From an uncultured Pelagibacteraceae bacterium (GTDB taxonomy: Bacteria > Pseudomonadota > Alphaproteobacteria > Pelagibacterales > Pelagibacteraceae), in assembly GCA_902605865.1 (NCBI GenBank), contig CACLEJ010000004.1:1-64000 (forward strand): a stretch of 64,000 bases of DNA, read 5' to 3'. The notes under the pieces are model-generated. The model worked only from the letters and a program-made list of their open reading frames with translations, made no database searches and had not been told where the DNA came from. The translations under genes were made by a program, and so were the position numbers. Position 1 is the stretch's first letter, and each line of letters opens with the position of its first letter. Of this stretch, positions 28,056 to 52,502 are shown one piece after another.

Positions 28056-29182
28056 CTTTTTTTTCTGTTTGAAACTTTGCATGCCTCAATAAATTTTGCA
28101 GTTTCAAGTCCCTCATCTTCATTTGGATAAAAAAACCTTTTTTTTGAATTATTTTTCAAAGAATCTGCAAATTCACGATAAATATTTGCAAATGCATCCA
28201 AATATCCTTCAGGATGTCCAAATTTTAATCTAGAAAATTTTTTAGACAATTCAGCATTAAAAAAACCTCTTTCAATAAATTTTACCGCACCATTAGACGG
28301 ATTAAGTTTTAAATAGTTTGGATCGTTTTGAACCCATTCCAAACTTCCTTTTGTTCCAAATATTCTTATTCGTAATCCATAAACTCCACCTCTGGCCATC
28401 ACACTTGTCCAAAACATTCCTTTAGCACCATTATTAAAATTAATCATTACTTGAGCATTGTTGTCCATTTTAATTTTATTTGAAACTTGTTTAATATCTG
28501 CAAAAATAGTTTCACCTTTTAAACCTGATATGTAAGTTACCATATGATATGCATGAGAGCCAATTTCGTTTAATACTGCTGAAGCTCCAACAATATTTTT
28601 ATCTATTTTCCATTTAAACTTTTTCTTTGCATTTTTTTGTGAAATATTTTCTCCACCTGACCAATCTTGAACATATTCAACGTTTATGTATTCAACTTTT
28701 CCAATTTTACCTTTTTCAATTAATACTTTTGCCTCTCTAACCATAGGATAGGCAGAATAATTATGTGTCAAAGCGTACTTAATTTTTTTATTTGATTTTA
28801 TTTTTTTAAATAATTTCTTAGCTTGAGTCAGATTTCCAGCAAATGGTTTATCAGAAATCACATGTATATTTTTATCAATAAATTTTTCTGCAATAATTTG
28901 GTGACTTGAAGGAGGTGTCATTATTGCAACAACATTAATACCATCTTTTCTTACTGCTTCTCTTTCAGCCATTTCTCTAAAATTTGAATAGCATCTCTCT
29001 TTTAAAATACCTAGGCTTTGACCAAAGCTTTTAGATAGTTTTGAATTTCTCGAAAAAACACCAGCAACTATCTCATATTGATTATCAAATCTTGATGAAA
29101 TTCTATGAACATGACCAATCCAAGATTTTGGACCACCTCCAACTACGCCAAGCTGAATTTTTTTTCCTTTAATTAATCTCAT
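28037..29182 (-). CDS. Gfo/Idh/MocA family oxidoreductase of the inositol cluster
   Basis: A 381-residue NAD(P)-dependent sugar or inositol oxidoreductase. I place the start at 29182 (MRLIKGKKIQLGVVGGG); a longer frame would run into the divergent iolE. DKPFAGN carries the conserved lysine, and NEIGSHAYH the histidine. The GWIGxVHR-type start and the DGINVVAIMTPPSSH segment resemble oxidoreductases found beside iol genes in rhizobia, possibly for scyllo- or chiro-inositol. The substrate is inferred from context. It overlaps iolG by 19 bases. Confidence 0.8.
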   Translation of the reverse strand: MRLIKGKKIQLGVVGGGPKSWIGHVHRISSRFDNQYEIVAGVFSRNSKLSKSFGQSLGILKERCYSNFREMAEREAVRKDGINVVAIMTPPSSHQIIAEKFIDKNIHVISDKPFAGNLTQAKKLFKKIKSNKKIKYALTHNYSAYPMVREAKVLIEKGKIGKVEYINVEYVQDWSGGENISQKNAKKKFKWKIDKNIVGASAVLNEIGSHAYHMVTYISGLKGETIFADIKQVSNKIKMDNNAQVMINFNNGAKGMFWTSVMARGGVYGLRIRIFGTKGSLEWVQNDPNYLKLNPSNGAVKFIERGFFNAELSKKFSRLKFGHPEGYLDAFANIYREFADSLKNNSKKRFFYPNEDEGLETAKFIEACKVSNRKKRWVKIK

Positions 29183-29213
29183 GATTAAATATATCTTAAC
29201 AAATAAAAAATTT

Positions 29214-30116
29214 ATGTCAGTAAAATTAGGTATAGCACCAATTGCTTGGAGTAATGATGACATGCCTGAGCTAGGCGGAGATACTCCTCTAGAACAATGT
29301 TTGTCAGAGGCAAGTCAGGCTGGATTTGTTGGGATTGAGTCAGGTGGTAAATTCCCAAAAACATCCAAAGAATTATTACCAAAATTAGATAAGTATAACT
29401 TAAAATTATGTTCTGGTTGGTATAGCGGAAATCTTAGAAAAAATTCTGTTGAACAAGAAAAAAATTTAATTCAAGACCAACTTAAATTATTTAAAGATTG
29501 TGAAGCTCCATGTATCGTTTTTGCTGAAGTTTTTGGATCAATACAGGGTGATCCAACAAAAAAACTTTCCAGTAGACCTAAGATGATGGATCAAGAATGG
29601 AAAGATTATTGCGAAAAAATATCTGAACTTGCAAAATATCTTGAAGATGAGGGTATGCCTTTAGCTTACCACCATCATATGGGAACAGTTATTGAAACAG
29701 AAGAAGAAACAATTAGATTGCTAGAAAATACAGATGATAGTGTAAAATTAACTTTAGATACTGGTCATATGTTATTTGCTCAGGGAAATTCAATTAATTT
29801 AATTAATAAATTCAAGGAAAGAGTAATCCATATTCACTGCAAAGATATTAGAGAAGAAGTATTAAAAAAAGCTCTTTCTGAAGATTTAAGTTTTAGGGAT
29901 GCCTTTTTAGAAGGTGCCTTTACCGTACCTGGTGATGGGTGTATCGACTATAAACCTTTGTTTGATATTTTAAAAAAAAATAATTATCAGGGTTGGCTTG
30001 TTGTGGAGGCTGAACAAGATCCTAAAAAAGCTAATCCACTTGAATATGCTATTAAGGGTTACAAATATATTACAGATACTTTAAAGAAATCAAATTTAGA
30101 GATTAATAATCTATAA
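29214..30116 (+). CDS. iolE: 2-Keto-myo-inositol dehydratase
   Basis: Second step of inositol breakdown: inosose to 3,5/4-trihydroxycyclohexane-1,2-dione. The start at 29214 gives MSVKLGIAPIAWSNDDMPELGG, the normal IolE N terminus, and 300 residues. The xylose-isomerase-like TIM barrel shows YHHHMGT, LTLDTGHMLFA, IHIHCKDI and VVEAEQDP, which supply metal ligands. Its start is 31 bases from the divergent oxidoreductase start. Confidence 0.93.
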   Translation: MSVKLGIAPIAWSNDDMPELGGDTPLEQCLSEASQAGFVGIESGGKFPKTSKELLPKLDKYNLKLCSGWYSGNLRKNSVEQEKNLIQDQLKLFKDCEAPCIVFAEVFGSIQGDPTKKLSSRPKMMDQEWKDYCEKISELAKYLEDEGMPLAYHHHMGTVIETEEETIRLLENTDDSVKLTLDTGHMLFAQGNSINLINKFKERVIHIHCKDIREEVLKKALSEDLSFRDAFLEGAFTVPGDGCIDYKPLFDILKKNNYQGWLVVEAEQDPKKANPLEYAIKGYKYITDTLKKSNLEINNL

Positions 30117-31067
30117 TTTTACTTTTTTACTATCTTCAAGTTTACCATCGAAAAAATCAAAAATATTTTGAATAGTTTCTTTTGCCATTCTTGTCATGCA
30201 TTCCTCAGTGAATGCAGCAGCATGAGGACTTAGGAAAACTTTGTCATTTTTTAATAGAGGATTATCAGCTTCTGGAGGTTCTACCTCAAATACATCAATT
30301 CCTGCTCCAAAAATCAAATTCTCATTTAAGGCTTTATTTAAGTCTTTCTCATTAATAATACCGCCCCTTGCAGCGTTAATGATTATACAGTTCTTTTTCA
30401 TCGTTTTAAGAAGTTCATAATTTATAATATTTTTAGTCTGATCAGTTAATGGTATATGGAGTGAGACAGCATCCATATCTTTAATAGCCTCCGCTAAATC
30501 TTCAACTTTTTTCCCACCCATTTTGCTTATTGTTTCCGCATCTACAAACGGATCATAAACAAAAACGTTCATTTCAAATCCTAAACATCTTTTAATCAAT
30601 GCTTTACCTATTCTTCCAAATCCAGCTATAAGAATGTTTTTGTCCCAAATCTCTATAGTTTTTGGTAATTTGTTCCTTTCAGTAAATTTTCCACTTTTGA
30701 CCGAATGGTCATACATACTTTTTCTTTTTGAGATACTTAAAAGCATAAAAAGAACATGTTCTGCAACTGCTACAGCATTTGCTGTTGCGGTTATTGCTAC
30801 ATCGATATTTCCTTTTTTACAGCTATTTAAATCAATATTATCGTAACCAACTCCATGTCTTGAAATTATTTTGAGGTTTTTTGCATTTTCAATTGCCTCA
30901 GCAGGCAATATTGAAGTTCTTAAAGAAACTGCATCTGCATCTACAATTTTTTGTTTCACGTTTTCAACGCTTAAATCCTCAACTACTTCGTAACTATAGT
31001 TACTATTACTTTTTAATAATTCCATACCTTTTTCATGAATAGGTTGGACAATGAGAATTTTTTTCAT
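30111..31067 (-). CDS. D-isomer-specific 2-hydroxyacid dehydrogenase (PGDH-like)
   Basis: A 318-residue NAD-dependent dehydrogenase. The Rossmann motif is ILIAGFGRIGKALIKR; catalytic residues are Arg in NAARGGIINE, Glu in DVFEVEPPEA and His in LSPHAAAFT. It lacks the C-terminal ACT domain of regulated SerA. In this neighbourhood it more likely acts on a sugar-derived hydroxy or keto acid than in serine synthesis. It converges with iolE with a six-base overlap. Confidence 0.8.
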   Translation of the reverse strand: MKKILIVQPIHEKGMELLKSNSNYSYEVVEDLSVENVKQKIVDADAVSLRTSILPAEAIENAKNLKIISRHGVGYDNIDLNSCKKGNIDVAITATANAVAVAEHVLFMLLSISKRKSMYDHSVKSGKFTERNKLPKTIEIWDKNILIAGFGRIGKALIKRCLGFEMNVFVYDPFVDAETISKMGGKKVEDLAEAIKDMDAVSLHIPLTDQTKNIINYELLKTMKKNCIIINAARGGIINEKDLNKALNENLIFGAGIDVFEVEPPEADNPLLKNDKVFLSPHAAAFTEECMTRMAKETIQNIFDFFDGKLEDSKKVKL

Positions 31068-31082: not shown

Positions 31083-32072
31083 TTATACTAGTCTAGCAAG
31101 ATCTCTTTTACTATTTTTAAATGTTGGAAGTGGATATTTAAATGCATACTTTCTTGGTATACATTTATTCTTTGCCTTTTCCCACAAAGCAATCCATTGC
31201 TTATAATTGTGGATAGTAATATTTTTTTTATTTTTGCTTCTTACATAAAAATTGGGCAAAGGTTTCCTACCAGATGGGGTTCCAGCCCTATTGTATCTTA
31301 AATCAGCGCTAATTCTAAAATCATTAGATCTATTAGGCAATGAACAATGAATGGAATGTTTGTGCAAAATAATAATATCACCAACATTAGCTTCTAGAAA
31401 AACTGGTTTGTAATTATCAAGTAATTTACTATTTTTTATTTCGACCTGACCTCTATATCCCGATATATGATTTAATAGTCCCAATTTATTAATTTCTTTT
31501 ACTGTAATCATACATCCATTTTTTTTTGTAGTTTTAGTAAATGGAATCCAAACAGTTACCATATCTGTTAATCTTTGTCCTAAAGATGATAATACTGCTG
31601 CATCCTGATGCCATGGCGTTCTGCCTGAGAGACCATCGTGAACAGAATGTTTAGGTAATTTATTTTCAGGTTGTTTAATTCTTGTATTTTGAACTGGATT
31701 TGACAGAATTTCTGGCCCTAATAATTTTTCAACCACATCCAAGATTTTTTTGTGATTTATTAAATTCCATAAAGATTGAGATGCAAAATAATCACTCTCT
31801 TTCTTCACGTGATCTCTTGGAAGTCTAGTATTAAAATATTGATCAAGATCATAAATATTTAGCTTTGAAATGTATGTGTATTTTTTCCTAAAGTTATATT
31901 TAAAAATCTTTTCTTTCATGTGCTCAGGAGCAAATTTATGAACTAAATTGTCCATTACATATTCCATGTCATTTAAAATTGGTTTTAAATCTTTATTGAA
32001 GTTAAGAACATTCCTTACTCTTAGGAAGCCATCCCTATCTAAAATACTCTTTAATTTAGTCTTAATCTGCAT
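31083..32072 (-). CDS. PhyH-type Fe(II)/2-oxoglutarate dioxygenase
   Basis: A 329-residue member of the phytanoyl-CoA dioxygenase-like family. The iron motif is HQD in TPWHQDAAVL with a distal His in HKHSIHCS, and the 2-oxoglutarate arginine is probably in FRISADLRYN. These enzymes hydroxylate small molecules; the substrate here is unknown. It follows a second Fe(II)/2OG oxygenase gene by five bases, on the same strand. Confidence 0.8.
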   Translation of the reverse strand: MQIKTKLKSILDRDGFLRVRNVLNFNKDLKPILNDMEYVMDNLVHKFAPEHMKEKIFKYNFRKKYTYISKLNIYDLDQYFNTRLPRDHVKKESDYFASQSLWNLINHKKILDVVEKLLGPEILSNPVQNTRIKQPENKLPKHSVHDGLSGRTPWHQDAAVLSSLGQRLTDMVTVWIPFTKTTKKNGCMITVKEINKLGLLNHISGYRGQVEIKNSKLLDNYKPVFLEANVGDIIILHKHSIHCSLPNRSNDFRISADLRYNRAGTPSGRKPLPNFYVRSKNKKNITIHNYKQWIALWEKAKNKCIPRKYAFKYPLPTFKNSKRDLARLV

Positions 32073-32077: not shown

Positions 32078-32938
32078 CTAATTTTTTAGCAAATAATTTG
32101 AGTCATGAAAAGATGTAAGCATTCTTTTTTTCGTCGCAACAATATGTGGATGATATTCAGAATTTTTATATTTCCATATTACAGGTTTATTAAGGGCATA
32201 ACTTCCATAAATAAAAAATCTTTTTGGACAGTTTTTTTCCTTAAATCTTTTTACACCGTGGTACGAATTAGGAGTAGATTTAAAGAAAATTACACTCCCC
32301 TGTTTTGGTGTAAATTCCTTTAATTTATCAAGTTCATTAATCTTAGGAAATCTTCTAAAGCTTTTTCTAAGGTTTTTGTTTGCTTTTTTCTTGTATAATG
32401 TAAGAGATCCTCCATTTTTTTTTGGTATATCAGTTAAATAGATCAAAAAATTATATAGCCTATTCACATCATCTCTATGCGGTCTCAATCTATATCCTCC
32501 TTTAGATATTGAGAAATCAATGTCTAAATTTAAATTTGGATTTTTATAATTTTTACCTAGTAGTTTTTTTAGCTCTTTGGAATTTACTTTTTTTTTTACT
32601 GTATATTTTTTTTTATTAAATTTTTTTGGTTTAAATAAACTTTCCCATGTATTTGCCTTAAACTCTGTTTTAAATTTCTTATCAATTTTATTATAAAATG
32701 TTTGTGTATTGAAAGTAGCAAAAAGTTTTTTTGAGATTTTAGAACTTGAGATATATTTGTTGAAATTTTTTGATCCTTTGTTAATCCTATTTCTGCCACC
32801 CATAATCATATCGTCAAAACTTTTTGAATTACTTATTTCTTTAATTAAATAATTGCAGGCTTTTTTACTGATTATTTGTTCTCCAACAATGACTGGGAAG
32901 TTTGATTCAATTTTCTTTAGTTTACTAATTTTCAGCAT
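32078..32938 (-). CDS. 2OG-Fe(II) oxygenase, prolyl-4-hydroxylase-like
   Basis: A 286-residue, very basic oxygenase. The iron triad is HxD in RPHRDDVNRLYN and a His in NSYHGVKRF, followed by the 2-oxoglutarate arginine in KRFFIYG. It is longer at both ends than the core domain, with many lysines. The substrate is unknown. Its stop is five bases from the PhyH start, and it starts immediately before the ketopantoate-reductase-like stop, so the three genes form a unit. Confidence 0.75.
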   Translation of the reverse strand: MLKISKLKKIESNFPVIVGEQIISKKACNYLIKEISNSKSFDDMIMGGRNRINKGSKNFNKYISSSKISKKLFATFNTQTFYNKIDKKFKTEFKANTWESLFKPKKFNKKKYTVKKKVNSKELKKLLGKNYKNPNLNLDIDFSISKGGYRLRPHRDDVNRLYNFLIYLTDIPKKNGGSLTLYKKKANKNLRKSFRRFPKINELDKLKEFTPKQGSVIFFKSTPNSYHGVKRFKEKNCPKRFFIYGSYALNKPVIWKYKNSEYHPHIVATKKRMLTSFHDSNYLLKN

Positions 32939-33883
32939 TTAGCTGTACATGCCCTCTTTTACTTTAATCATTTTGTACATAAGGTCATTTAATGGTGTGG
33001 CTATTCCATGTTTTTTTCCTATTTTAGATACGGCGCCACTAATGAAATCAATTTCAGTTTTTCTTTTATAAAGTACATCAAAAGCCATTGAAGACTTATT
33101 TGTTTGTTTTGAATCAACAATTTTATTAAACATAAATAAACATTCATCCTCAGAAACATTAACACCATCTGCTAAAGCAACATCTCTTGTTTCTAATATT
33201 ATCTCTTTTCCTAAACTTCTAGAAACATCGTTAGCATTATTATTTATGTAAAGATCAGTATGATGTAGATCAAAAATAGCTGAAAGTGGGCCTATTGCGG
33301 TTAAAGCAAAAAGTTTCATCCATTTTCTTTTTTTAACATCCTCAGCTGCAATCATTTCTAAATTATGAGCAGTAAATGTGTCTGCAATTTCGGTTATTCT
33401 ATCTGAAATCCCACCATCATATTCTCCAATCCAAGAGGGTAGAGCTGCATGATTCATAATATGACCAGGGCCTAAGATATTTGATGCTTGAGTTGTTGTT
33501 CCCCCAATTACTTTTTCATCACCAACAATACTTTTAATTATAGCTTCATGTCCAATTCCATTTTGAAAAGACATAAAAACTGTTTTATCGTTAATAATGT
33601 TTTTTATACTTTTTAAAGCAGGTTCTAGAGCCGTTGCTTTACACATGACTATCACAGCATCAACTTTTCCAATTGTAGAGGGATCTGATGTTGCTGGTAC
33701 TTTTATAAATCTATCACCACCATGACCATCCATTTTTAGACCATTTTTATTTATTTCATCAACATGCTCTTTCCAAACGTCAATGAGCGTTACATTTAGA
33801 CCCTTTTCTGCTAGTAGGCCTCCGAATAGACAACCCATTGCCCCTGCACCAAGAACCGCAACTTTTAGATCTTTATTATTCAT
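32939..33883 (-). CDS. Ketopantoate reductase-family (ApbA/PanE) oxidoreductase
   Basis: A 314-residue NAD(P)-dependent reductase. GAGAMGCLFGGLLAEKG is the N-terminal Rossmann loop; the helical C-terminal domain includes the lysine of KRKWMKLFALTAIGP and a Ser-rich SSMAFDVLYKRKTEIDFISGAV typical of PanE. Paralogues in catabolic clusters often reduce or oxidise other alpha-keto acids, and this setting suggests that rather than pantothenate synthesis. It heads the run of minus-strand genes ending with the dioxygenases. Confidence 0.75.
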   Translation of the reverse strand: MNNKDLKVAVLGAGAMGCLFGGLLAEKGLNVTLIDVWKEHVDEINKNGLKMDGHGGDRFIKVPATSDPSTIGKVDAVIVMCKATALEPALKSIKNIINDKTVFMSFQNGIGHEAIIKSIVGDEKVIGGTTTQASNILGPGHIMNHAALPSWIGEYDGGISDRITEIADTFTAHNLEMIAAEDVKKRKWMKLFALTAIGPLSAIFDLHHTDLYINNNANDVSRSLGKEIILETRDVALADGVNVSEDECLFMFNKIVDSKQTNKSSMAFDVLYKRKTEIDFISGAVSKIGKKHGIATPLNDLMYKMIKVKEGMYS

Positions 33884-33946
33884 TTTTAAAATCGAAATAT
33901 ATTTATGTAAAAAAATTATGCAATATATTATGTAACTAATTTATAT

Positions 33947-34915
33947 ATGGAATTAAAAATAGAAAAAGGAATTTTTAAGAAATTCGAGTTAGAAGAAATA
34001 ACAAATGCTTTGCAAGTTGGATTGTCAAAAAATTTTGAAAGTGTCACAGCAAAGATAGTTGATTGTCCAAATTTAAGAGATTGGAATTGTCCATCAGAAG
34101 GAATGAGTGGTAACCAAAGAATAATTGATGTTGGAGGAGAACCATATATGCACGATCCTAAATATATTGGTGCTGAATTCGATTATGCAGAAATATCAAA
34201 ATTGATTGGGTCAGAGAAATCATACGCACTTGGCGCAGGATCTGGAGCAATGTCTTGTCTTGATGGGCACTGCGGAGAATTGGTTATAAACGAAAACTTA
34301 ACAACAAAGGAGTATAGATCTTTAATAGCAAGGGTAGGTACAGATAAAAAATGTATTGTAGAGGACTATAATGATAGTAAACATGGCGGACTTGGTAATG
34401 TTTATTATTCAGATGGTGTTAAGGGTAAAGTTATTTATTTAAAGATAAAGAAAAGAATTGGAAAACAAGGCTCATTGCCTCAAGCAATCAGAGCAGCACT
34501 TTCAGAAAATTTAAAAATATTTAACAACGATCATATCGCTTTAGCTGGTGTATTTAGAGTTTTAAATGGAAAAATAAGATCGCATGTTCAACCAGATTAT
34601 AAGGATATAAAACATGAATACTACGATCCAAAATTAATGAAATGTACAAAAGATTTTCTTCAATTTTATGAGCCAGTAGGGCCAAAATTACAATGTTATA
34701 CCGTTTTATGGACAGGAGATCCAATGGGTGGAGAATTAAATCTAAGAGAGTCTGGAGAGCATACACATTTTCATTCATACGAACATAAAAATGATGCAGG
34801 ACATTATCATTTTGATGTGACACCAGACGAGATAGAATACGAAGGATATTTTAATACTGCACAAGAAGTTCACAGAGTAAATAATATTTATAAAGAATTA
34901 GCTGCGAAAAATTAA
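33947..34915 (+). CDS. C11orf54/PTD012-like (DUF1907) metal-dependent protein
   Basis: A 322-residue homologue of the animal protein C11orf54. Matches seen by eye include VDCPNLRDWN, the LGAGSGA loop, IGKQGSLPQAIR, NGKIRSHVQPD and the C-terminal HTH...HYHFD...YEGYF block. His272, His274, His286 and His288 are likely metal ligands; the human protein is known from its structure to bind zinc through such histidines and to have ester hydrolase activity. It stands alone on the plus strand between genes for a PanE-like enzyme and an HpcH aldolase, suggesting action on a sugar-acid intermediate. Its role in bacteria is not established to my knowledge. Confidence 0.8.
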   Translation: MELKIEKGIFKKFELEEITNALQVGLSKNFESVTAKIVDCPNLRDWNCPSEGMSGNQRIIDVGGEPYMHDPKYIGAEFDYAEISKLIGSEKSYALGAGSGAMSCLDGHCGELVINENLTTKEYRSLIARVGTDKKCIVEDYNDSKHGGLGNVYYSDGVKGKVIYLKIKKRIGKQGSLPQAIRAALSENLKIFNNDHIALAGVFRVLNGKIRSHVQPDYKDIKHEYYDPKLMKCTKDFLQFYEPVGPKLQCYTVLWTGDPMGGELNLRESGEHTHFHSYEHKNDAGHYHFDVTPDEIEYEGYFNTAQEVHRVNNIYKELAAKN

Positions 34916-34916
34916 T

Positions 34917-35708
34917 TTAGTAAGTTTCAGACTCTTTTTTGCTTATTGAGCCTTTAATTTTTTCAACAATTGCCTTAGCTCCAGCACTCATTGCTCTTTG
35001 ATCTGCACCAATAGTTACAAAGTTAAATCCTTTGTCGATCATTTTTTGTGCGTACTCTGGTGTTCCATTGTGAATTCCTGCAAAAATATTATTTTTTTTG
35101 GCATGTTCTAATATTCTTAATATTTCTGAATAAGCTTTTGTATCTTCTGGTCTATCAAATCCAGGCTTTTCTCCAATTGCTAAACTTAAGTCAGCTGGGC
35201 CAATATATATTCCATCTACACCATCTGTAGACATAATCTCATCTAATTTATCTAATGATTCTTTTGTTTCAATCATAGCTAATTTTAAAATTTCATCATT
35301 TGCATGGTCGGCATAATCAGCTCCGCCATAAATCAATCCTCTAACAGGACCAAAACTTCTATATCCTCTTGGAGGATACATGCATGCTTGTACAAATCTT
35401 TCTGCCTCTTCTTTATTGCTAACCATAGGACATATAATTCCATAACAACCAGCGTCTAAAATTTTCATGATTTGGCCTGGTTCATTCCAATTTACTCTTG
35501 CAAGAGGAGTTACATCAGTTGATGAAATAGTTTGAAGCATTGGAAGTGCGTTTGTGTAATCAACAAGTCCATGCTGCATATCTACAGTTAGAGAATCCCA
35601 ACCTTGATGAGCCATAACTTCAGCTGATACAGTGCTTGGTATTTGTAGCCAACCATTTACAATAGGCTTACCTTCAGCCATCATTTGTTTGACTTTATTT
35701 TTTCTCAT
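34917..35708 (-). CDS. HpcH/HpaI-family class II aldolase
   Basis: A 263-residue TIM-barrel aldolase that reversibly cleaves 4-hydroxy-2-oxo acids. The base-related histidine is in DMQHGLVDY, the pyruvate-carboxylate arginine in PLARVNW, and metal ligands are the Glu of AMIET and Asp of GPADLS. Relatives cleave 2-keto-3-deoxy acid sugars or homoprotocatechuate products. A 2-keto-3-deoxy sugar acid is the likely substrate here. Its ATG overlaps the stop of the upstream aldehyde dehydrogenase gene by one base. Confidence 0.85.
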   Translation of the reverse strand: MRKNKVKQMMAEGKPIVNGWLQIPSTVSAEVMAHQGWDSLTVDMQHGLVDYTNALPMLQTISSTDVTPLARVNWNEPGQIMKILDAGCYGIICPMVSNKEEAERFVQACMYPPRGYRSFGPVRGLIYGGADYADHANDEILKLAMIETKESLDKLDEIMSTDGVDGIYIGPADLSLAIGEKPGFDRPEDTKAYSEILRILEHAKKNNIFAGIHNGTPEYAQKMIDKGFNFVTIGADQRAMSAGAKAIVEKIKGSISKKESETY

Positions 35709-37150
35709 TAATAATTGAGACCAAAGTGAGTATACTTAACGTTCAAATAATCTTTGATGGCCATAGAACCACCTTCTCTTCCATAACCTGTTTGTTTTAT
35801 TCCTCCAAAAGGCACTTCAGCAAAAGCAATTGTTGGATGGTTCACTGCGCATGTTCCAGTTTCCATTTTTTCTGAGACTTTGTGCGCTTTTTCTAAGGAA
35901 TTTGTATAGATATAGCTTGCTAAACCAAGGTCATTATCATTAGCTCGCTTAACAACTTCATCTGTGTCTTTAAAAGTAAGCAATGGAACTAAAGGTCCAA
36001 ATGGCTCTTCTTTAGCAATTGTAAAATTATCTTTAACATTGTCAAAAATAGTTGGTTCGTAAAAATACCCTTTATTAAAACCAGCAGGTCTTTTTCCACC
36101 ACATAAAACAGTCGCTCCTTCACTTTTAGTTTTTTCTACTAATGCCTCTATTTCATTTAATCTTTTTTCTGTTGTTAAAGGCCCCAGAATTGTATCTTCA
36201 TCCATACCGTTACCAACTTTAAGCTTAGTAACCTTTTCAACTAATGTTTTAGCAAATTCATCTTTTTTACTTTCATGAATATAAAATCTCGCAGGTGATA
36301 TACAAACTTGACCATTATTTCTAAATTTAGCAGTGATTGCCATGTCAGTAACCTTATTAATATCTACATCATCAAAAACAATAAAAGGTGAATGACCACT
36401 TAACTCCATTGTAACTCTTTGCACTTTTTCAGCAGCTTGTTTTAAAATTAGTTTTCCAACTCTTGTTGAACCAGTTATAGAAACTTTTTTTACTATGTCA
36501 GATGATATTAATTGAGATGAAATTTTAGCTGGGTCACCAGATAGTAAATTTACTACTCCTGGAGGAACACCCGCATCATTTATAATATTCATAAGCTCCA
36601 TTACACTACCTGGAGTAATTACATCAGGCTTACAAATTACTGAACATCCTGCAGCTAAAGCAGTAGAAATTTTTCTTGAAGATAAAACTATTGGAAAATT
36701 CCATGGTATTAATCCAGCAACTACTCCAACTGGCTCATATTTTACATACATTCTTGTATGTTCAAATCTACTTTCAACTATTTGACCATAAATTCTTTTT
36801 GTCTCTTCAGAGTTCCATTCAAAAATATCTGCAGCTCCTCCAACTTCTCCTTTTGCTTCTGATAGTGGCTTTCCAACTTCTAATGTTAACCACTTAGCTA
36901 ATACATCAGTTCTCTCTCTCATTAGGTCGGCAATTTTTCTTATAATTTTTGATCTTTGCCAAGGTGGAGTATTTCTCCAAACCTCAAGACCTTTTTCTGC
37001 AGACTTAAGTGCTTTGTTTACATCTTCTTCACCTGCTTTAGATGCCTTACCTAAAACTTCCTCAGTTGCAGGATTTAAAACATCATAAGTTTCATTATTT
37101 TGTGATGCTTGCCATTTGCCATCAATGAATTGTCCAAATTTGCTATACAT
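35708..37150 (-). CDS. NAD(P)-dependent aldehyde dehydrogenase
   Basis: A 480-residue aldehyde dehydrogenase of the succinate-semialdehyde-like branch. Visible are the IPWNFP nucleotide-site motif, the general base Glu in MELSGHSP, the nucleophilic cysteine in NGQVCISPARF and the EEPFGPLVP segment. It does not look like IolA (methylmalonate-semialdehyde dehydrogenase). Paired with the downstream aldolase gene, it could oxidise the aldehyde product of cleavage or, by analogy with the Weimberg route, 2-oxoglutarate semialdehyde. Divergent from iolD. Confidence 0.88.
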   Translation of the reverse strand: MYSKFGQFIDGKWQASQNNETYDVLNPATEEVLGKASKAGEEDVNKALKSAEKGLEVWRNTPPWQRSKIIRKIADLMRERTDVLAKWLTLEVGKPLSEAKGEVGGAADIFEWNSEETKRIYGQIVESRFEHTRMYVKYEPVGVVAGLIPWNFPIVLSSRKISTALAAGCSVICKPDVITPGSVMELMNIINDAGVPPGVVNLLSGDPAKISSQLISSDIVKKVSITGSTRVGKLILKQAAEKVQRVTMELSGHSPFIVFDDVDINKVTDMAITAKFRNNGQVCISPARFYIHESKKDEFAKTLVEKVTKLKVGNGMDEDTILGPLTTEKRLNEIEALVEKTKSEGATVLCGGKRPAGFNKGYFYEPTIFDNVKDNFTIAKEEPFGPLVPLLTFKDTDEVVKRANDNDLGLASYIYTNSLEKAHKVSEKMETGTCAVNHPTIAFAEVPFGGIKQTGYGREGGSMAIKDYLNVKYTHFGLNY

Positions 37151-37205
37151 AATTTTTATTTTGTGGTTTATTAGTTGAATATTAGAGGAGAATATAACTA
37201 GAAAA

Positions 37206-39050
37206 ATGAGAAAAATAAAGCTTACTTGCGCGCATGCATTGGTAAAACATTTAATCGCTCAGAAAGTCTATATTGATGGTCAAGTTAAGCCTTTGTTTCC
37301 TGGTGTATTCGGTATATTTGGGCATGGAAATGTCGCCTGTCTAGGACAAGCATTAGAGGAAAATAAAGATCAACTTCCAACATATAGGGGTCATCACGAA
37401 CAAAATATGGCTTTAACAGGTGTTGCTTATGCAAGAGCTAAAAGAAGAAAGCAAATTTTTATTGCAACAAGTTCGGTTGGACCAGGATCTACAAACCTAG
37501 TTACAGCATCAGCTGTAGCAATGAGTAATAGATTGCCAATTTTATTTTTACCTGGTGACACTTACGCAAATAGAATGCCAGATCCAGTTTTGCAACAGGT
37601 TGAACACTTTTCAAATCCGGGAATGACAGCTAACGACTCATTTAAACCAGTTACAAAATATTTTGATAGAATTACAAGACCAGAGCAAATATTACAGTCA
37701 CTCCCTCAAGCAATTCAAACTATGTTAGATCCAGCAGAGTGTGGACCCGCATGTTTATCTTTGTGCCAAGATGTACAAGGCGAAACTTTTGATTATCCTG
37801 AGGAATTTTTTAAAGAAAGAATTCATAATATTAGAAGACCTAGACCTGATGATTTTCAAATTAAACAAGCAGTTGAAAAAATTAAAAATTCGAAAAAACC
37901 TATTATAATTTCTGGAGGTGGAGTATTTTATTCTGATGCCATGGATGAGTTAGGAAATTTTGCAATTAAACATAATATACCAGTAACCCAAACAGTTATG
38001 GGATACTCAACAATGAAAAAAGATCATTCTCATTTTGTAGGACCAATAGGTGGCCTTGGTGGCAAGGCAGCAAATAACTTGGCAAAAGAAACTGATTTAG
38101 CAATTTGCATAGGAACTAAGCTTGCAGATTTTACAACCGGCTCGTGGGCTAATTTTGAAAATCCTGAATTTAAATTAGTTTCAATTAATATAGCAAGACA
38201 TGATGCCAACAAACATTTAGCAGAAGCAGTTATAGGTGACGCAAAAGTTACCTTAACAGAATTATCTAAAGCTATTGGGGATTGGAAATCATCTGATAGC
38301 TGGCATAAAAAATCACAAGTCGAGTTAAAATCTTGGAATGAATACGTGGATAAAGAGAGCGGTCCAACAAATCAAGAATTACCAAGTTATGCTCATGCTG
38401 TTGGAGCAATTTATAGAAATTCAGATCCAACTGATATAGCTGTTACAGCAGCTGGAGGTTTGGTTGGAGAAGTTGTTCAAGTTTGGCGTCCAAAAGAGTT
38501 AAATACTCATGAAACGGAGTGGGGATTTAGTTGCATGAGTTATGAAATTTCTGGTGCTCTTGGTATAAAAATGGCCAATCCTGATAAAGACGTAATTGCT
38601 TTTGTTGGTGATGGATCATACCTACTTAACAATTCAGATATATATTCTTCAGTAATTACTAATAATAAATTAATAATCATTGTATGTGATAATGGAGGTC
38701 ATGCTGTTATAAATAGACTTCAATTGTTTAAGGGTGGAAAAGAATTTAATTGTTTGTTTAATTCCTCAAATATTCAAAACTCCAAAGAAGTAAATTTCGC
38801 TCAACATGCAGCAAGCATGGGTGCAAAATCAGAACATGTTTCTAGTATTTCAGAATTAGAAGAAGCATTTAAAAGAGCTAAACAATCAGATGTAACTTAT
38901 GTTATATCAATTAAAACACATAGTTACGAATGGCTTGAAGGATCTGCTTATTGGGAAAGCCCTACGCTTGAAATACCAACATCAAAAGAAAATGAAGAAG
39001 CATTAAAACTCCACAAAGAAGGAAAATCAAAACAGAGACAAGGTGTTTAA
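37206..39050 (+). CDS. iolD: 3D-(3,5/4)-Trihydroxycyclohexane-1,2-dione hydrolase
   Basis: ThDP-dependent ring-opening enzyme of the inositol pathway, yielding 5-deoxy-D-glucuronate. The 614-residue protein aligns by eye with Bacillus IolD from the start: KIKLTCAHALVKHL, FGIFGHGNVACLGQALE, the ThDP glutamate in GHHEQNMA, SSVGPGSTNLVTA, MPDPVLQQVEH, and the ThDP-binding VAFVGDGSYLLNNSD...NGGH in the C-terminal third. A GAGGAG lies about 15 bases before the ATG. Nine bases separate it from the next gene. Confidence 0.93.
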   Translation: MRKIKLTCAHALVKHLIAQKVYIDGQVKPLFPGVFGIFGHGNVACLGQALEENKDQLPTYRGHHEQNMALTGVAYARAKRRKQIFIATSSVGPGSTNLVTASAVAMSNRLPILFLPGDTYANRMPDPVLQQVEHFSNPGMTANDSFKPVTKYFDRITRPEQILQSLPQAIQTMLDPAECGPACLSLCQDVQGETFDYPEEFFKERIHNIRRPRPDDFQIKQAVEKIKNSKKPIIISGGGVFYSDAMDELGNFAIKHNIPVTQTVMGYSTMKKDHSHFVGPIGGLGGKAANNLAKETDLAICIGTKLADFTTGSWANFENPEFKLVSINIARHDANKHLAEAVIGDAKVTLTELSKAIGDWKSSDSWHKKSQVELKSWNEYVDKESGPTNQELPSYAHAVGAIYRNSDPTDIAVTAAGGLVGEVVQVWRPKELNTHETEWGFSCMSYEISGALGIKMANPDKDVIAFVGDGSYLLNNSDIYSSVITNNKLIIIVCDNGGHAVINRLQLFKGGKEFNCLFNSSNIQNSKEVNFAQHAASMGAKSEHVSSISELEEAFKRAKQSDVTYVISIKTHSYEWLEGSAYWESPTLEIPTSKENEEALKLHKEGKSKQRQGV

Positions 39051-39059
39051 AAACTTTAT

Positions 39060-40217
39060 ATGAATAAAGTTTTTAAAATTGGATTAATAGGTTGTGGACA
39101 TATTGCTGAAACATATTTTAGAGCTGAAAAATATTTTAATAATATAAAAATTATTAAATGTGCTGATATTAATGAGAAAGCTTCTAAGCGTTGTGCTTTA
39201 AATTTTGGAATAAAATCTGTAACTGTTAATGAGCTTCTTAAAGATAATGAAATAGAAATTATTTTAAACCTTACAATTCCAAAAGCACATTATCAAATAT
39301 CTAAAAAAGCTTTAATAAATGGAAAACATATTTATTCAGAAAAACCATTAGCAATAAATTTAAATGATGGAAAAAAATTATTAAAAATTTCAAAAAAGAA
39401 AAAATTATATTTAGGAAACGCTCCTGATACTTTTTTAGGAGGTGGAATTCAAAAATCTAAAGAATTAGTTGAAAAAAATATTATAGGAAATGTAAAATTA
39501 GGAAATGCAGTTTTTGCATTTCCTGGTATTCAATCCTACCATCCTAATCCTGAACCCTGGTTTACAAAAAAAGAGGGAGGTCCTGTTATCGATATGGGAC
39601 CATATTATATTACTGCTTTAGTAAATCTTTTAGGACCAGCAAAAAAAGTTACAGGCACCATCATTCAAGGCCAAAAATATAGAACTATTGGGATAGGACC
39701 AAAAAAAGGCAAGAAATTTAAGGTAGAATGTCCAACTACTTATTTATCTACAATTACTTTTAAAAATAACTCCGTTATAAGATTAACATTATCATTTGAT
39801 GTTATAGCTCATCAAAGAAATCATATTGAATTATATGGAGAAAAAGGGTCAATGATAGTTCCAGATCCAAATATGTTCGGTGGATCAGTATTAACTTGCA
39901 ATAAATTAGGCGATAACTGGAAAGAGTTTAAGACCTCAAAAATGCCATTAGGGAGGATTAATATAAGAACACAAAGTTCAAGAGCTAATGAAACACCAAC
40001 TAATGCAAACTATCGAGGCGTGGGGTTGTCAGAGATGGCATATTCGATTGAAAATAAAAGAAAACATTTGTGTAGTGGTGAAATTTCTCTTCATGTATTA
40101 GACATTATAACTTCTATTATGAAAGCGGCCAGGTCTGGCAAAATTCAATACATTAATACCTTTTGCGCAAAACCAAAAAAGTTTTCAAAATTAGATATTA
40201 AGAAATTACTAAAATAA
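39060..40217 (+). CDS. Gfo/Idh/MocA family oxidoreductase
   Basis: A 385-residue dehydrogenase. The N-terminal Rossmann motif is IGLIGCGHIAETY, the conserved lysine is in SEKPLAIN, and a GGPVIDMGPYYITALVNLLGP segment occupies the active-site face where other members have DxxxH. The lack of the usual His in this segment may mean a different substrate from IolG. It follows iolD by nine bases and is followed by a 2-hydroxyacid dehydrogenase gene seven bases later. Confidence 0.8.
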   Translation: MNKVFKIGLIGCGHIAETYFRAEKYFNNIKIIKCADINEKASKRCALNFGIKSVTVNELLKDNEIEIILNLTIPKAHYQISKKALINGKHIYSEKPLAINLNDGKKLLKISKKKKLYLGNAPDTFLGGGIQKSKELVEKNIIGNVKLGNAVFAFPGIQSYHPNPEPWFTKKEGGPVIDMGPYYITALVNLLGPAKKVTGTIIQGQKYRTIGIGPKKGKKFKVECPTTYLSTITFKNNSVIRLTLSFDVIAHQRNHIELYGEKGSMIVPDPNMFGGSVLTCNKLGDNWKEFKTSKMPLGRINIRTQSSRANETPTNANYRGVGLSEMAYSIENKRKHLCSGEISLHVLDIITSIMKAARSGKIQYINTFCAKPKKFSKLDIKKLLK

Positions 40218-45526: not shown

Positions 45527-46702
45527 TTATTCTATAATTTTAAAATCAGATTTATATTTATCAGTAATTGTTAAACCAAGACCAGGTTTATTATCATCTA
45601 AATCTATATATCCATTTTTAGGAGCAGGATCACCTTCAAAAATGTAATAGAATAATTCATTGCCTATTTCTACATCATGGACTGGAAAAAACTCTGAAAT
45701 TGGACAATTGAAATTAGACATTGTTAAATGATAATTATGCATTTGACCAGCATGCGGAATAACTGGCACTTGATACGCTTCTGCTAATGCATTTATTTTA
45801 TTTGCAATTGTAAATCCACCAACTCTGTTATTATCATATTGAATATAACTAACTGCTTTAATGTCTAACAATTGTTTAAATCCAAATAAGTTGAACTCAT
45901 GTTCTCCTCCAGAAATTGGAATTGCATTCATATTATTTAATTCAGCATAACCATGAATATCGTCAGCTATAACTGGCTCTTCTAACCATCTAGGATTAAA
46001 CTTTACCAATTTAGGGATCATTCTCTTTGCATAATCCAGGTTCCAGCCCATATAACATTCCATCATTAAGTCAGTATCATATCCAATAACTTCTCTAACT
46101 GCTTCAGCTAGCTCAATATTTTTTTTCATACCTTCAGGTCCATCTTTTGGCCCCCACCCAAATCTCATTTTAAACATTTTAAAACCTTGCTTAACATAGC
46201 TTTCAGCTTCTTTTTGCAAATCCTTAATTGGTTGGCTGTAAAGTTTAGATGCGTAAACAGGTATCTTTTCTTTAGTTCGCCCACCTAATAGTTTAAAAAT
46301 AGGTTTGTTTGTAACTTTTCCCATTATGTCCCAGAGCGCAATATCAATAGCAGAAATAGCTACCATCCCCAATCCTCTTCTTCCCCATGCATGTGTTCTT
46401 CTGTACATTTTTTCCCAGATGTAGGAATAATCAAAAGGATCTTCACCTACTACTAACGGTGTTAAATAAGTATCGATTGTTTTTTTTACCAATTGAGGTG
46501 CAAGTGCTGCATTTCCAATTCCAATAATTCCATCATCAGTTTCAATTTCACATATTAACCATTCATGAAATCTAAATGATCCCATTGCATCTGATTTTTC
46601 AAACAAAAGGTCTGAAGCATTTGTGCAAAAATTATTTTGTGGAGGAACTGTTTTACCGTTCCATTGATATACTTTGGTGCGTATACTTTTTATTTTAGAC
46701 AT
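45527..46702 (-). CDS. Enolase-superfamily acid-sugar dehydratase (RhmD-like)
   Basis: A 391-residue mandelate-racemase/enolase member that dehydrates aldonates to 2-keto-3-deoxy acids. Metal ligands are probably Asp in [12 protein letters not shown], Glu in RWLEEPV and Glu in ISGGEHEF; the catalytic histidine is in [26 protein letters not shown], the SGEHE segment and the [15 protein letters not shown] end resemble L-rhamnonate dehydratase, with L-lyxonate or L-fuconate as alternatives. It abuts rbsK tail to tail and follows the PdxA-like gene directly on its strand. Confidence 0.8.
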
Positions 46703-47698
46703 TTAATTGTTTTTATTTTGTGCCATTGTTAATGCAATTTTGAATGAATTCAAAGTAGGTTCTAAATTTGCCTTATTTTTTCCAGCAATATCAAATGCAG
46801 TTCCATGAGCAGGAGTGGTTATAGGGACTGGCAAACCTCCTTGTACAGTTACCCCTCGATCAAATCCAAATGCTTTTAAACCTGATTGTAAAGCATCATG
46901 ATACATACCAACAATACAATCATGATTTCTATTTTTATAAGCAGTGATAAAAGAAGTGTCACATGGCAAAGGTCCATCAGCATTAATACCTAATTTTTTT
47001 GCCTCTTCTATTGCGGGTATAATTTCATCTTTTTCCTCTGTCCCAAATTCAGCGTGAGGGTTTAGTGCTTGGACTGCTACTCTTGGACTTTTAATACCAT
47101 TTAATTTCATAGCTTCATTTATAAGTTTAATTGGCTTAATAATTTTGTCCTTTTTTACATGTTCAGGAACTTCTTTTATTGGAATATGCGATGATACCCT
47201 TGCTGTCCAAAAATTATCAATAACATTAAACTCGCAAAAAAAATTTTTAACCTCTAACTTTTCAGCCATTAAATGTAATTCATCAGAATATTTATTTCCT
47301 CCAAGTTTAAGGCTTGTTTTGTTAAATGGTCCAAAGTTTATTGCATGAATTTTATTTTCTTTAGCAAGATCTAACGCTAAATTTAACGAAGCTAAAACGC
47401 TTTCTCCTGCCTCTTTAGAACACTCAGACAATTTATAGTTATGATTTTTACCTTTAGATATATCTAGAAAAAATTTACTACCTTTTGCAAAATCAATATT
47501 ATTGAAATCATCTACATAATTTAAATTATGTGATTTGCCTGAAATTTTATTTCCGCTTTCTAAAATATTTTTTTCACCTATGATAATTACATTAGCTTTG
47601 TCAGTGATTTCCTCTGACAATAGTTTTGAGACCAATTCGGGCCCTATACCAGAAGGATCACCTAAAAGAACTGCTATGTTAATTTTATTTTGAGCCAT
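46703..47698 (-). CDS. PdxA-family (PdxA2-like) phosphate-sugar-acid dehydrogenase
   Basis: A 331-residue homologue of 4-hydroxythreonine-4-phosphate dehydrogenase. GDPSGIGPELVSKLL is the N-terminal signature; metal-binding His residues are likely in VSSHIPIKEVP, LNPHAEFG and VGMYHDALQSGLKAFGFDRGV. In catabolic clusters such proteins (PdxA2) oxidise four-carbon acid phosphates rather than making vitamin B6. The usual partner kinase (DUF1537) is not in the window, so its substrate is unclear. It diverges from the tripartite transporter genes. Confidence 0.82.
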   Translation of the reverse strand: MAQNKINIAVLLGDPSGIGPELVSKLLSEEITDKANVIIIGEKNILESGNKISGKSHNLNYVDDFNNIDFAKGSKFFLDISKGKNHNYKLSECSKEAGESVLASLNLALDLAKENKIHAINFGPFNKTSLKLGGNKYSDELHLMAEKLEVKNFFCEFNVIDNFWTARVSSHIPIKEVPEHVKKDKIIKPIKLINEAMKLNGIKSPRVAVQALNPHAEFGTEEKDEIIPAIEEAKKLGINADGPLPCDTSFITAYKNRNHDCIVGMYHDALQSGLKAFGFDRGVTVQGGLPVPITTPAHGTAFDIAGKNKANLEPTLNSFKIALTMAQNKNN

Positions 47699-47759
47699 TT
47701 TTTACTTTACGCTATGTATCAGATTATGTTTATATATTTAAATATAAATTAACTAAAAA

Positions 47760-47767
47760 GAGGGAAA
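47760..47767 (+). promoter_or_regulatory. Strong ribosome binding site GAGGGAAA of the TctC-like gene
   Basis: GAGGGAAA stands two bases before the ATG at 47770. The same octamer precedes two other binding-protein genes in the window. Confidence 0.75.
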
Positions 47768-47769
47768 TT

Positions 47770-48744
47770 ATGAAAAAAAGTTTTAAACTTTTCTTAGCAG
47801 CTGCATTTCTAGTAACAGAATTTTTCGTTGTTGCACTTCCACTTATGATTACTTCTGCAAAAGCAGATGGTCACCCAATTCAAGCTATTACTCATGCTGG
47901 TTTTGGTGGTGGTACAGACGTAACTACTAGAATGATGCTTCTAAGAGCACGTAGAGTTCTTAAACAAGATATGCAATTGGTTAACAAAAAAGGTGGTGGT
48001 GGAGCAGTATCAATGGATTACATGATGAGTTTACCCGCTGACGGACAACATACTTTAACTTGGACTACAGGTCATGCTGTTTCAATGGCGTTAGGTAAAA
48101 CTAAAGTTAAAATAAGTGATATGCAACCACTAGCAAGAGGAACTGATGATCCTCAATTGTTTGTTGTAAATTGTAAGGCAGACATTAAAGATGCTAAAAA
48201 ATTTATTAGTACTCAAAAATCAAAATCACTTAAATACGGAACAACACATGTAGGTGGAATTGATGATGTGAGTGCTATTGCATTTACAAAAAAAGGTGGA
48301 TTAAAAGATCCAACTATTGTTGCTTATAAGGGTGTAGCTCCAATTAAAACTAACTTAATCAAAGGCGATATTGATGTAGGTGTTTTAAACTTAGGGGAAG
48401 CATTAACAGAAATAAATGACGGAACACTTTGTGTGTCTGTTGTCTTAGCAAATAATAGAATGGCTAAAATTGGGGATTCTCCAACAGCTAAAGAATTAGG
48501 AATACCTGTTTCTTTATCTACTGTTAGAGGTTTTGTAACTAAAAAAGGAGCACCAGCTGAAAGAGTTAAAGAATTAGAAGCTGGAATGATGAAAGCTATG
48601 AGCCATAACTACTACAAAAATTTCTTAACAGAAATTGGTCTTGATGAGACAAGTGTAGTTGGTGCTGATGAATGGGGTAAGCAAATGGAAGAAATGCTTA
48701 CAGAGATGACAGCGCAACTTAAAGCTTTGGGTTACATTAATTAG
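47770..48744 (+). CDS. TctC-family periplasmic binding protein of a tripartite tricarboxylate-type transporter
   Basis: A 324-residue secreted solute-binding protein. A signal peptide precedes KADGHPIQAITHAGFGGGTDVTTRMM, the TctC-type start of the mature protein. The family's KGGGGAVSMDYM and GTTHVGGIDDVSA segments follow. TctC proteins bind carboxylates; the ligand is unknown, but the neighbouring dehydratase and dehydrogenases suggest a sugar acid. It is followed within 40 bases by a terminator that lies in the start of the next gene. Confidence 0.87.
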   Translation: MKKSFKLFLAAAFLVTEFFVVALPLMITSAKADGHPIQAITHAGFGGGTDVTTRMMLLRARRVLKQDMQLVNKKGGGGAVSMDYMMSLPADGQHTLTWTTGHAVSMALGKTKVKISDMQPLARGTDDPQLFVVNCKADIKDAKKFISTQKSKSLKYGTTHVGGIDDVSAIAFTKKGGLKDPTIVAYKGVAPIKTNLIKGDIDVGVLNLGEALTEINDGTLCVSVVLANNRMAKIGDSPTAKELGIPVSLSTVRGFVTKKGAPAERVKELEAGMMKAMSHNYYKNFLTEIGLDETSVVGADEWGKQMEEMLTEMTAQLKALGYIN

Positions 48745-48765
48745 TCATAAGAAAGTACATTTTTT

Positions 48766-49272
48766 ATGAATAATGTACGAAATAAAAAAAGGGCAAACAA
48801 AAGTTTGCCCTTTTTTTTTAAAGATGAGTTTATAGTTTCATTTATTATTGTTTTTATCTCAATAATTTTACTAATAAGTACTTTTTCGTTTGATATTGTT
48901 CCTCCAATTCTAAACAGAGGTATACAACCTGCAACTTTTCCTAAAGCTTTATTAATATTAATAATAAGCCTAACTTTAATTATTTATTATCTATCAATAA
49001 AGAGTCCATGGAAAATAGGAAAGAAATTACCTAAAACATTTTTTTTAACTTTACTTAGTTTTTTAATATTTGTTATTATTTCAAAAACTTTAGACTTCTT
49101 TTTAGCAATATCAGTATTATCAATTTTTGTTTCCTATAATTGGGGTGAAAGAAGAATATTTTATTTATTATTAGTAAGTATTATTTTTCCTATTTTGGTT
49201 TTTATTTTTTTTGAAACAATCTTAGGCTTAAGATTTCCTCCAGGAATAATTACTAATCTTTATTATTATTAA
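48766..49272 (+). CDS. TctB-like small membrane subunit
   Basis: A 168-residue protein with four hydrophobic segments beginning at about residue 22 (FIVSFIIVFISIILLIS). RGIQPATFPKALLILI fits the TctB family. The only in-frame ATG near the first helix is at 48766, upstream of a terminator hairpin, so codons 6-18 (RNKKRANKSLPFFF) are encoded by that hairpin and its flanks. No clear ribosome binding site is seen. It ends one base before tctA. Confidence 0.78.
   Translation: MNNVRNKKRANKSLPFFFKDEFIVSFIIVFISIILLISTFSFDIVPPILNRGIQPATFPKALLILIISLTLIIYYLSIKSPWKIGKKLPKTFFLTLLSFLIFVIISKTLDFFLAISVLSIFVSYNWGERRIFYLLLVSIIFPILVFIFFETILGLRFPPGIITNLYYY
48784..48819 (+). terminator. Terminator hairpin inside the tctB-like reading frame
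   Basis: A seven-base A-run, GGGCAAAC (48791-48798), a four-base loop, GTTTGCCC (48803-48810) and nine Ts. This is a complete intrinsic terminator located 15-50 bases into the next gene. It should lower permease expression relative to the binding protein. Confidence 0.9.
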
Positions 49273-49273
49273 A

Positions 49274-50746: not shown

Positions 50747-50747
50747 T

Positions 50748-51497
50748 ATGATTAATTTTGATTTAAAAGATAGAGTTGCAATAGTGACAGGAGGCGCCCA
50801 AGGTTTTGGACTAGCTATTACGGAGAGATTTATTGCTTCTGGAGCAAGCGTTATAATTTGGGATATAGACGAGGAAGCAATCAAAACTGCAACAAAAAAA
50901 ATTAATTCAGATAAGGTTTCATACCAAATTGTTGATGTTGGAAATTATGAGAATATAGAAAAAAATTTAGCTGAAATTGAAAAAACTCACAAAAAAATTG
51001 ATATTTTCATCAATAATGCAGGTGTTGCAGGAAAAAATACTACAGTAGTTGATTATCCACTTGATGAGTGGAAAAAAGTTATAGACCTAAATCTAAATGC
51101 AGTATTTTATTGTTGTAAAGCCGTAACGCCTTACATGCTTAAAAATAATTATGGAAGAATTGTAAATATTGCCTCTATAGCTGGGAAAGAGGGCAATCCT
51201 AATGCCAGTGCATATAGTACATCTAAAGCTGGAGTTATAGGTTTAACCAAATCACTTGGAAAAGAATTAGCATTAAAAAATATAGCTGTTAATTGCGTAA
51301 CCCCAGCTGCTGCAAAAACTAGAATTTTTGATCAAATGACTGAGGAACATATTAATTATATGTTATCTAAAATCCCAAGAAATAAATTTGCCAAAGTAGA
51401 TGAATTAGCATCTCTTGTAACATGGTTATCCAGTGAAGAAAATTCTTTTTCTACAGCTGCTGTTTTTGATTTGAGTGGTGGAAGAGCAACTTATTAG
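50748..51497 (+). CDS. Short-chain dehydrogenase/reductase
   Basis: A 249-residue classical SDR with TGGAQGFG for NAD(P), NNAG, catalytic Ser in IASIAGKEG and Tyr-x-x-x-Lys in AYSTSKAG. It begins one base after tctA. Together with the RhmD-like dehydratase in the same block it may oxidise a 2-keto-3-deoxy acid, as in the L-rhamnose and L-fucose diketo pathways; this is inference from context. Confidence 0.85.
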   Translation: MINFDLKDRVAIVTGGAQGFGLAITERFIASGASVIIWDIDEEAIKTATKKINSDKVSYQIVDVGNYENIEKNLAEIEKTHKKIDIFINNAGVAGKNTTVVDYPLDEWKKVIDLNLNAVFYCCKAVTPYMLKNNYGRIVNIASIAGKEGNPNASAYSTSKAGVIGLTKSLGKELALKNIAVNCVTPAAAKTRIFDQMTEEHINYMLSKIPRNKFAKVDELASLVTWLSSEENSFSTAAVFDLSGGRATY

Positions 51498-51500
51498 TTT

Positions 51501-52490: not shown

Positions 52491-52502
52491 TTTAATAAAT
52501 AA

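Follow-up and report, generated by a model that had tools for sequence, protein, structure and literature searches.

SAR11 bacteria, which are among the most abundant bacterial groups of the ocean, encode a homologue of the human protein C11orf54 (DUF1907 family) whose constant partners are a PanE-like dehydrogenase and a PhyH-type hydroxylase. We found the gene at positions 33947-34915 (forward strand) of a 64,000-nucleotide stretch of DNA from an uncultured Pelagibacteraceae bacterium, called the window here, as an open reading frame for 322 amino acids. By analogy with the human enzyme the activity class of its product can now be predicted, and it would be a zinc decarboxylase. Our analysis suggests, with a probability of about 0.55, that it acts on a 3-oxo acid, possibly a 2-hydroxy-3-oxo acid, made by the PanE-like dehydrogenase, within a cassette that would hydroxylate, oxidise and decarboxylate an acid. 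The novelty lies in the SAR11 cassette and in its PanE-like and PhyH partners, of which we found no description in the literature searched; a function had already been assigned to the human protein.

Known functions of the family

Malatesta et al. are said to have given the original report of the decarboxylase function of human C11orf54 in 2025, and we know of no activity for any bacterial member of the family. The human protein (PTD012, PDB 1xcr) is the 3-dehydro-L-gulonate (beta-ketogulonate) decarboxylase, EC 4.1.1.34, with L-xylulose as its product (PMC12435205, a 2025 commentary by Galperin), and a passage of PMC12921845 likewise states that C11orf54 is a decarboxylase. Its zinc has three histidine ligands, its fold is related to that of bacterial acetolactate decarboxylase and the substrates of the two are similar; rotifers have fusions of the DUF1907 domain with a dehydrogenase domain of the 3HCDH type (PMC12435205). 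An earlier report that human C11orf54 hydrolyses p-nitrophenyl acetate led to the annotation of the family as ester hydrolases (cited in PMC12435205).

For bacteria, a table in a marine metagenome paper has DUF1907 under 'Sig' and gives no function there (PMC3597751). Among the matches listed in our literature searches, judged by title and the opening of the abstract, there is no study on the function of a bacterial DUF1907 member. An earlier note on this DNA had taken the function to be undescribed, which no longer holds for the family as the human member is a decarboxylase, and may still hold for bacteria. Its broad expectation of an enzyme for open-chain keto acids would agree, by analogy, with the 3-dehydro-L-gulonate decarboxylated by the human protein (PMC12435205).

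The DUF1907 protein and its predicted metal site

The profile check proposed in the earlier note gave a clear hit, and the homology with C11orf54 indeed runs over the whole protein. The PF08925 (DUF1907) profile scores 199.4 bits (cut-off 25; E 1.1e-58), with residues 22-311 aligned to positions 1-285 of its 285, i.e. its full length. The human protein (1xcr_A) is matched by residues 14-313 in phmmer with E 3.9e-36, and 102 of the 279 aligned positions (37%) are identical to human C11orf54. The window's genome has no DUF1907 match other than this gene. The homology to 1xcr is clear from the sequences, and the window protein would accordingly be expected to have the alpha-beta-beta-alpha fold of 1xcr; the AlphaFold model that we built from 19 SAR11 sequences is of poor quality, with a pLDDT of 47. 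An hmmsearch of the PDB with the DUF1907 profile at E up to 10 gave only 1xcr and a ribosomal protein (E 0.49) and did not match acetolactate decarboxylase.

We aligned 101 SAR11 copies, 95 of them distinct, with the human protein. The histidines H272, H274, H286 and H288, pointed out before as a His-rich site, are conserved in all 101 copies and in human, and they are among the 66 positions that are invariant over this whole set. The codons of E271-H288 (EHTHF...GHYH), the predicted zinc site, are located at 34757-34810 on the forward strand. We take H272, H274 and H286 to be the zinc ligands by analogy with the human structure. The interval between H274 and H286 was rightly noted to be two residues longer than in human, having 11 residues in the window protein and 9 in the human one (EHTHFHSYEHKNDAGHYH and EHTHFFSRHGEGGHYH, respectively). 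The window protein differs further by four additional residues (RESG) just before EHTHF.

Pairwise comparisons of the gene with five SAR11 relatives gave dN of 0.06-0.16 and dS of 0.89-1.97, and a sixth, more distant pair, with locus L035, gave no usable dS. dN is far lower than dS, a sign that purifying selection acts on the gene.

Distribution of the gene and its constant partners

DUF1907 is encoded in 90 of the 397 genomes sampled from the order, all within the window's own family and in three of 13 genera, labelled g1 (the window's genus), g5 and g6. Our samples of the class and the phylum, restricted to genomes at least 80% complete, contain one positive genome each (1/386 and 1/397), which is the window's own copy in both cases. 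A pattern scan of GTDB contigs yielded 258 DUF1907 relatives, the best 80 of which are all from SAR11; the patterns were biased towards SAR11 and human sequences. Among these best 80 of 258, the nearest 12 named records (L052-L063) are 96-100% identical and belong to uncultured Pelagibacteraceae or Pelagibacterales. The 26 pattern matches in viral contigs include no relative, and plasmids have none at E 1e-5. The family is stated to occur in some bacteria (PMC12435205).

We then compared 71 SAR11 genomes, i.e. all 36 DUF1907-positive ones up to G199 and 35 negative ones up to G037, of which 29 and 11, respectively, are from the window's genus. An orthologue of the PanE-like gene (at least 74% identity) is present in 36/36 positive and 0/35 negative genomes, counts which, like all those below, are not independent because the genomes are related and come from one order. 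The orthologue is split over two contigs in G148, and the other PanE hits are about 35% identical or less. The PhyH orthologue (at least 51% identity; E up to 1e-10) follows the same pattern, with 36/36 and 0/35. A PanB-like orthologue (at least 71% identity) was found in 31 of the 36 positive genomes, the exceptions being G000, G148, G170, G187 and G195, and in none of the 35 negative ones. IolD exceeds its cut-off in 32 of the 36 positive and three of the 35 negative genomes. A Liv-type binding protein is encoded in all seven g5/g6 genomes with DUF1907, in none of the 29 from g1 and in none of the 35 negative genomes (E up to 1e-30). In L035, a g5 stretch, the gene for this solute-binding protein is at 16355-17557 on the reverse strand.

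The core of DUF1907, PanE-like and PhyH genes is kept in three genera despite different surroundings, and all three genes are jointly absent from G034, a g5 genome. Distance matrices over 71 loci did not discriminate among the neighbours, as the correlations of DUF1907 with PanE, PhyH, IolD, HpcH and aldehyde dehydrogenase are all 0.74-0.86.

Gene order around DUF1907

We compared 100 loci, namely 20 genome stretches (nine from g5, three from g6 and eight from g1) and 80 loci from the GTDB contigs (best 80 of 258), all at least 80% identical and taken as g1. The usual order in the 88 g1 loci is a 2-hydroxyacid dehydrogenase (2HADH), PhyH, a 2OG oxygenase and the PanE-like gene, with DUF1907 divergent from the latter and followed by a 138-aa gene (in some loci), a PanB-like gene, HpcH, an aldehyde dehydrogenase and IolD.

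In the window the PanE/ApbA-like dehydrogenase is encoded at 32939-33883 on the reverse strand, divergent from DUF1907. Its product matches PF02558 (135.8 bits) and PF08546 (96.4 bits), scores 236.9 bits against the subfamily model TIGR00745 (cut-off 141.35) and is below the cut-offs of the other 17 listed NCBIfam models. The match to 3HCDH_N (25.8 bits, cut-off 22) covers only the nucleotide-binding start of the protein, residues 7-47. We did not encounter an L-gulonate 3-dehydrogenase from the 3HCDH family at the locus, the linked enzyme being of the PanE/ApbA type with both of its domains. The 63 bases between the two divergent genes (33884-33946) presumably hold a shared promoter region. 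The PanE-like gene is directly divergent from DUF1907 in 85 of the 100 loci. The remaining 15 are the 12 g5/g6 stretches, in seven of which the PanE-like gene is further away, plus L096, L122 and L126, where the gene is near a contig end. In L096 the DUF1907 gene (903-1856) is at the contig end and is followed by 2OG and PhyH genes on the same strand with no PanE-like gene between; this rearranged order is unique among the compared loci and could be an assembly effect.

The PhyH-type 2OG-Fe(II) dioxygenase (31083-32072, reverse strand; PF05721) has its best relatives in the PDB at just E 3.5e-6. A second 2OG-Fe(II) oxygenase of 286 aa (32078-32938, reverse strand; PF13640) abuts the PanE-like gene and has no relative in the PDB at E up to 0.1. 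This oxygenase was found in most g1 loci and in 8/9 g5 stretches, and it was not seen in the three g6 stretches. It is no constant partner, because the place between PhyH and PanE also shows no such gene in six of the 12 loci of the window's clade.

On the other side of DUF1907, positions 34915-34917 mark the site where most relatives have a PanB-like gene, some with the 138-aa gene before it; the window has neither. The PanB-like gene is downstream of DUF1907 in 78 of the 100 loci and in none of the 12 closest to the window (L052-L063). The window's genome has no PanB-like orthologue, the best match being 33% identical, and this lineage manages without the gene. Copies over the PF02548 cut-off are at L035:10883-11695 and L047:11316-12131, both on the forward strand. 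The 138-aa protein, encoded between DUF1907 and the PanB-like gene at L047:10903-11319 (forward strand), has no Pfam match and occurs in part of g1 and in L036 and L037. Our guess is that it may be a winged-helix regulator.

PanE-like and PanB-like genes side by side could be taken for pantoate enzymes serving coenzyme A synthesis, with DUF1907 as an accessory, as the former passes TIGR00745 and the latter the PF02548 cut-off. We consider this explanation very improbable. The PanB-like protein of L035 scores 96.3 bits against TIGR00222, the PanB equivalog model, below the cut-off of 207.55, and the copy of L047, aligned with E. coli PanB, is changed at the presumed positions of the metal ligands and the active-site lysine. 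In addition, PanC is found in 29/36 DUF1907-positive and 34/35 negative genomes, a second, distant PanB homologue is present in 64 of the 71 genomes, and the window's genome does without the PanB-like orthologue.

In g5 and g6 the iol genes do not adjoin the cassette, and a Liv-type importer, an HpaH-like gene and other genes are found there instead. The HpaH-like gene is upstream of and divergent from DUF1907 in all 12 g5/g6 loci (e.g. L035:9072-9851 and L042:9084-9854, both on the reverse strand). The HpaH-like genes fall into two families that share only about 38%, which would fit independent acquisition or replacement, and the one copy tested is below the NCBIfam cut-off.

Elsewhere in the window, positions 45527-63723 hold a long sugar-acid island, with genes for an enolase-superfamily dehydratase, a PdxA2-like protein, a TTT-type transporter, a ROK kinase, a Ugp-like ABC importer, and UxaA-like and IlvD-like dehydratases; all these names except the enolase-superfamily dehydratase were assigned by eye.

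The inositol module beside the cassette

The cassette of the window is bordered on the left by the 2HADH gene (30111-31067, reverse strand) and on the right by the genes for HpcH aldolase and aldehyde dehydrogenase (reverse strand) and IolD (forward strand), which occupy 34917-39050 and were identified with PF03328, PF00171 and NCBIfam. IolD and IolE are both over their NCBIfam cut-offs. The HpcH, aldehyde dehydrogenase and iol neighbours, as well as the PanE-like reductase with its PF02558 and PF08546 matches, are those named in the earlier note; the functional link that it suggested between DUF1907 and the iol, HpcH and aldehyde dehydrogenase genes was not supported by the comparison with other genomes. 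In G003 (L132) the genes for IolD, aldehyde dehydrogenase, HpcH, 2HADH, a 166-aa ORF and IolE are in a row with no cassette, and only 6 bases separate HpcH from 2HADH, which is the cassette's place in the DUF1907-positive g1 genomes. G034 (L134) has IolD and the aldehyde dehydrogenase, no cassette and no recognised HpcH there. In six g5/g6 genomes with both, IolD and DUF1907 are on different contigs, and the cassette is nested inside the inositol module only in g1. The surroundings are thus unrelated with respect to the iol genes in two of the three genera, but not with respect to the PanE-like gene. The HpcH, aldehyde dehydrogenase and iol genes form an inositol module separate from the cassette, although IolD-centred inositol catabolism adjoins it in g1, and hence these neighbours say little about DUF1907.

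One could still suppose that DUF1907 fills a gap in the inositol pathway after IolD. Such a gap exists, as IolB (PF04962) is found in 0/71 genomes (control over the cut-off in 5/14) and IolC is over its cut-off in 0/35 IolD-positive genomes (control 3/14), and the cassette is physically nested among iol genes in g1. The association with IolD (32/36 against 3/35) also goes beyond what linkage can fully explain, because it includes 6/7 g5/g6 genomes where the two are unlinked. However, of the 35 genomes with IolD over the cut-off three lack DUF1907, and these (G003, G022 and G034) have neither the PanE-like gene nor PhyH. Together with the location on different contigs in the sister genera, and with IolD adjoining the aldehyde dehydrogenase in G003 and G034 where there is no cassette, this makes a role in inositol breakdown unlikely in our view.

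The SAR11 inositol module itself (window positions 29181-30116 and 34917-40217; L132-L138, L140 and L141) includes IolE, IolD and a Gfo-type dehydrogenase. An aldehyde dehydrogenase is beside IolD in 8/9 stretches, the ninth being only 5.7 kb long, and an HpcH aldolase in 6/9. These two enzymes may provide a non-phosphorylating route, in which, for example, 5-deoxyglucuronate may be oxidised, dehydrated and cleaved to pyruvate and malonate semialdehyde.

Probable recombination at the DUF1907 segment

The window and L064 differ at 33% of the third codon positions of DUF1907, compared with 8-11% for PhyH, 2OG and PanE, 14-19% for aldehyde dehydrogenase and HpcH, and 27% for IolD. The dS values for the same pair are 0.89 for DUF1907 and 0.15-0.19 for PanE, 2OG and PhyH. 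As the synonymous divergence is raised too, the DUF1907 segment has probably been exchanged between lineages. We considered a changed function after the loss of the PanB-like gene and rejected it, since the dS of DUF1907 is elevated as well, which recombination with replacement of the allele explains better. The site of the absent PanB-like gene in the window's clade touches this segment.

Proposed reaction

We propose that EHTHF...GHYH provides three histidine ligands for a zinc ion, which would polarise the 3-keto group of the substrate. This substrate would be a 3-oxo acid, probably one with a 2-hydroxy group, and its carboxylate could then leave as CO2. The 3-oxo acid would be supplied by the PanE-like dehydrogenase through oxidation of a hydroxyl, which might be native to the substrate or added by the PhyH-type dioxygenase. 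DUF1907, PanE-like and PhyH proteins, presumably all acting in the cytosol, would thus shorten an acid by one carbon. PhyH enzymes add hydroxyls using 2-oxoglutarate, and hence the three proteins make chemical sense as a series of hydroxylation, oxidation and decarboxylation. Our computations show that the protein belongs to the family, that its site is conserved, and that the genes co-occur and form a cassette. The decarboxylase activity, the zinc and the fold related to acetolactate decarboxylase are carried over from published work on human C11orf54, and the bacterial activity, the order of the steps and the class of substrate are what we infer.

The pairing of a dehydrogenase with DUF1907 is common to SAR11, the animal couple of CRYL1 and C11orf54 and the rotifer 3HCDH-DUF1907 fusions. 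SAR11 differs in having a PanE/ApbA-type enzyme rather than a 3HCDH one, and a PhyH hydroxylase in addition. PanE and 3HCDH enzymes have a two-domain build in common, and the PanE-like dehydrogenase would naturally supply the keto group, a part played in animals by CRYL1. Counting against the proposed reaction, the usual substrates of PanE enzymes are 2-keto acids, yet a 3-keto product is needed; human C11orf54 has been reported to hydrolyse p-nitrophenyl acetate; and the association with IolD is strong, if incomplete.

An alternative hypothesis could be that SAR11 carries out the human reaction on the human substrate, i.e. that oxidation of L-gulonate at C3 yields 3-dehydro-L-gulonate, which then loses CO2 to give L-xylulose. 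The full-length homology at 37% identity, the four conserved histidines and 66 invariant positions shared with human C11orf54 would fit, as would the further sugar-acid genes within the window. However, the bacterial gene is in a cluster with a partner dehydrogenase of another family, PanE-like and not the 3HCDH type of animals, and the constant PhyH and the Liv-type importer of the sister genera have no obvious fit to the use of sugar acids. No gene for making L-gulonate or using L-xylulose was recognised among the scanned neighbours. The gene context lends no specific support to this possibility, which we regard as rather unlikely.

A hydrolase of esters or lactones, as the family annotation has it after the p-nitrophenyl acetate assay, seems quite improbable to us. 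That activity was reported for the human protein (cited in PMC12435205), but the same commentary accepts decarboxylation as its function, and the tested partners, PanE-like, PhyH and PanB-like, neither make nor use a lactone or an ester.

Returning to the decarboxylase reading, we speculate, tentatively and with low confidence, on a complete acid-shortening route in SAR11. PhyH might hydroxylate an imported acid, the PanE-fold dehydrogenase might take the place of L-gulonate 3-dehydrogenase, the C11orf54-type zinc enzyme might decarboxylate the product, and the remainder might, in most lineages, be handled by a PanB-like aldolase with an altered active site. If true, both the substrate and the enzyme pairing of this route would be new to the C11orf54 family.

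With the gene in 90 of 397 genomes and the partners in 36 of 36 tested, the cassette gives the search for a marine carbon source a concrete starting point. The cassette would also show the role of the C11orf54 family outside animals and which dehydrogenase the family pairs with there, and the co-occurring genes suggest that organic acids are shortened by a small pathway not described so far.
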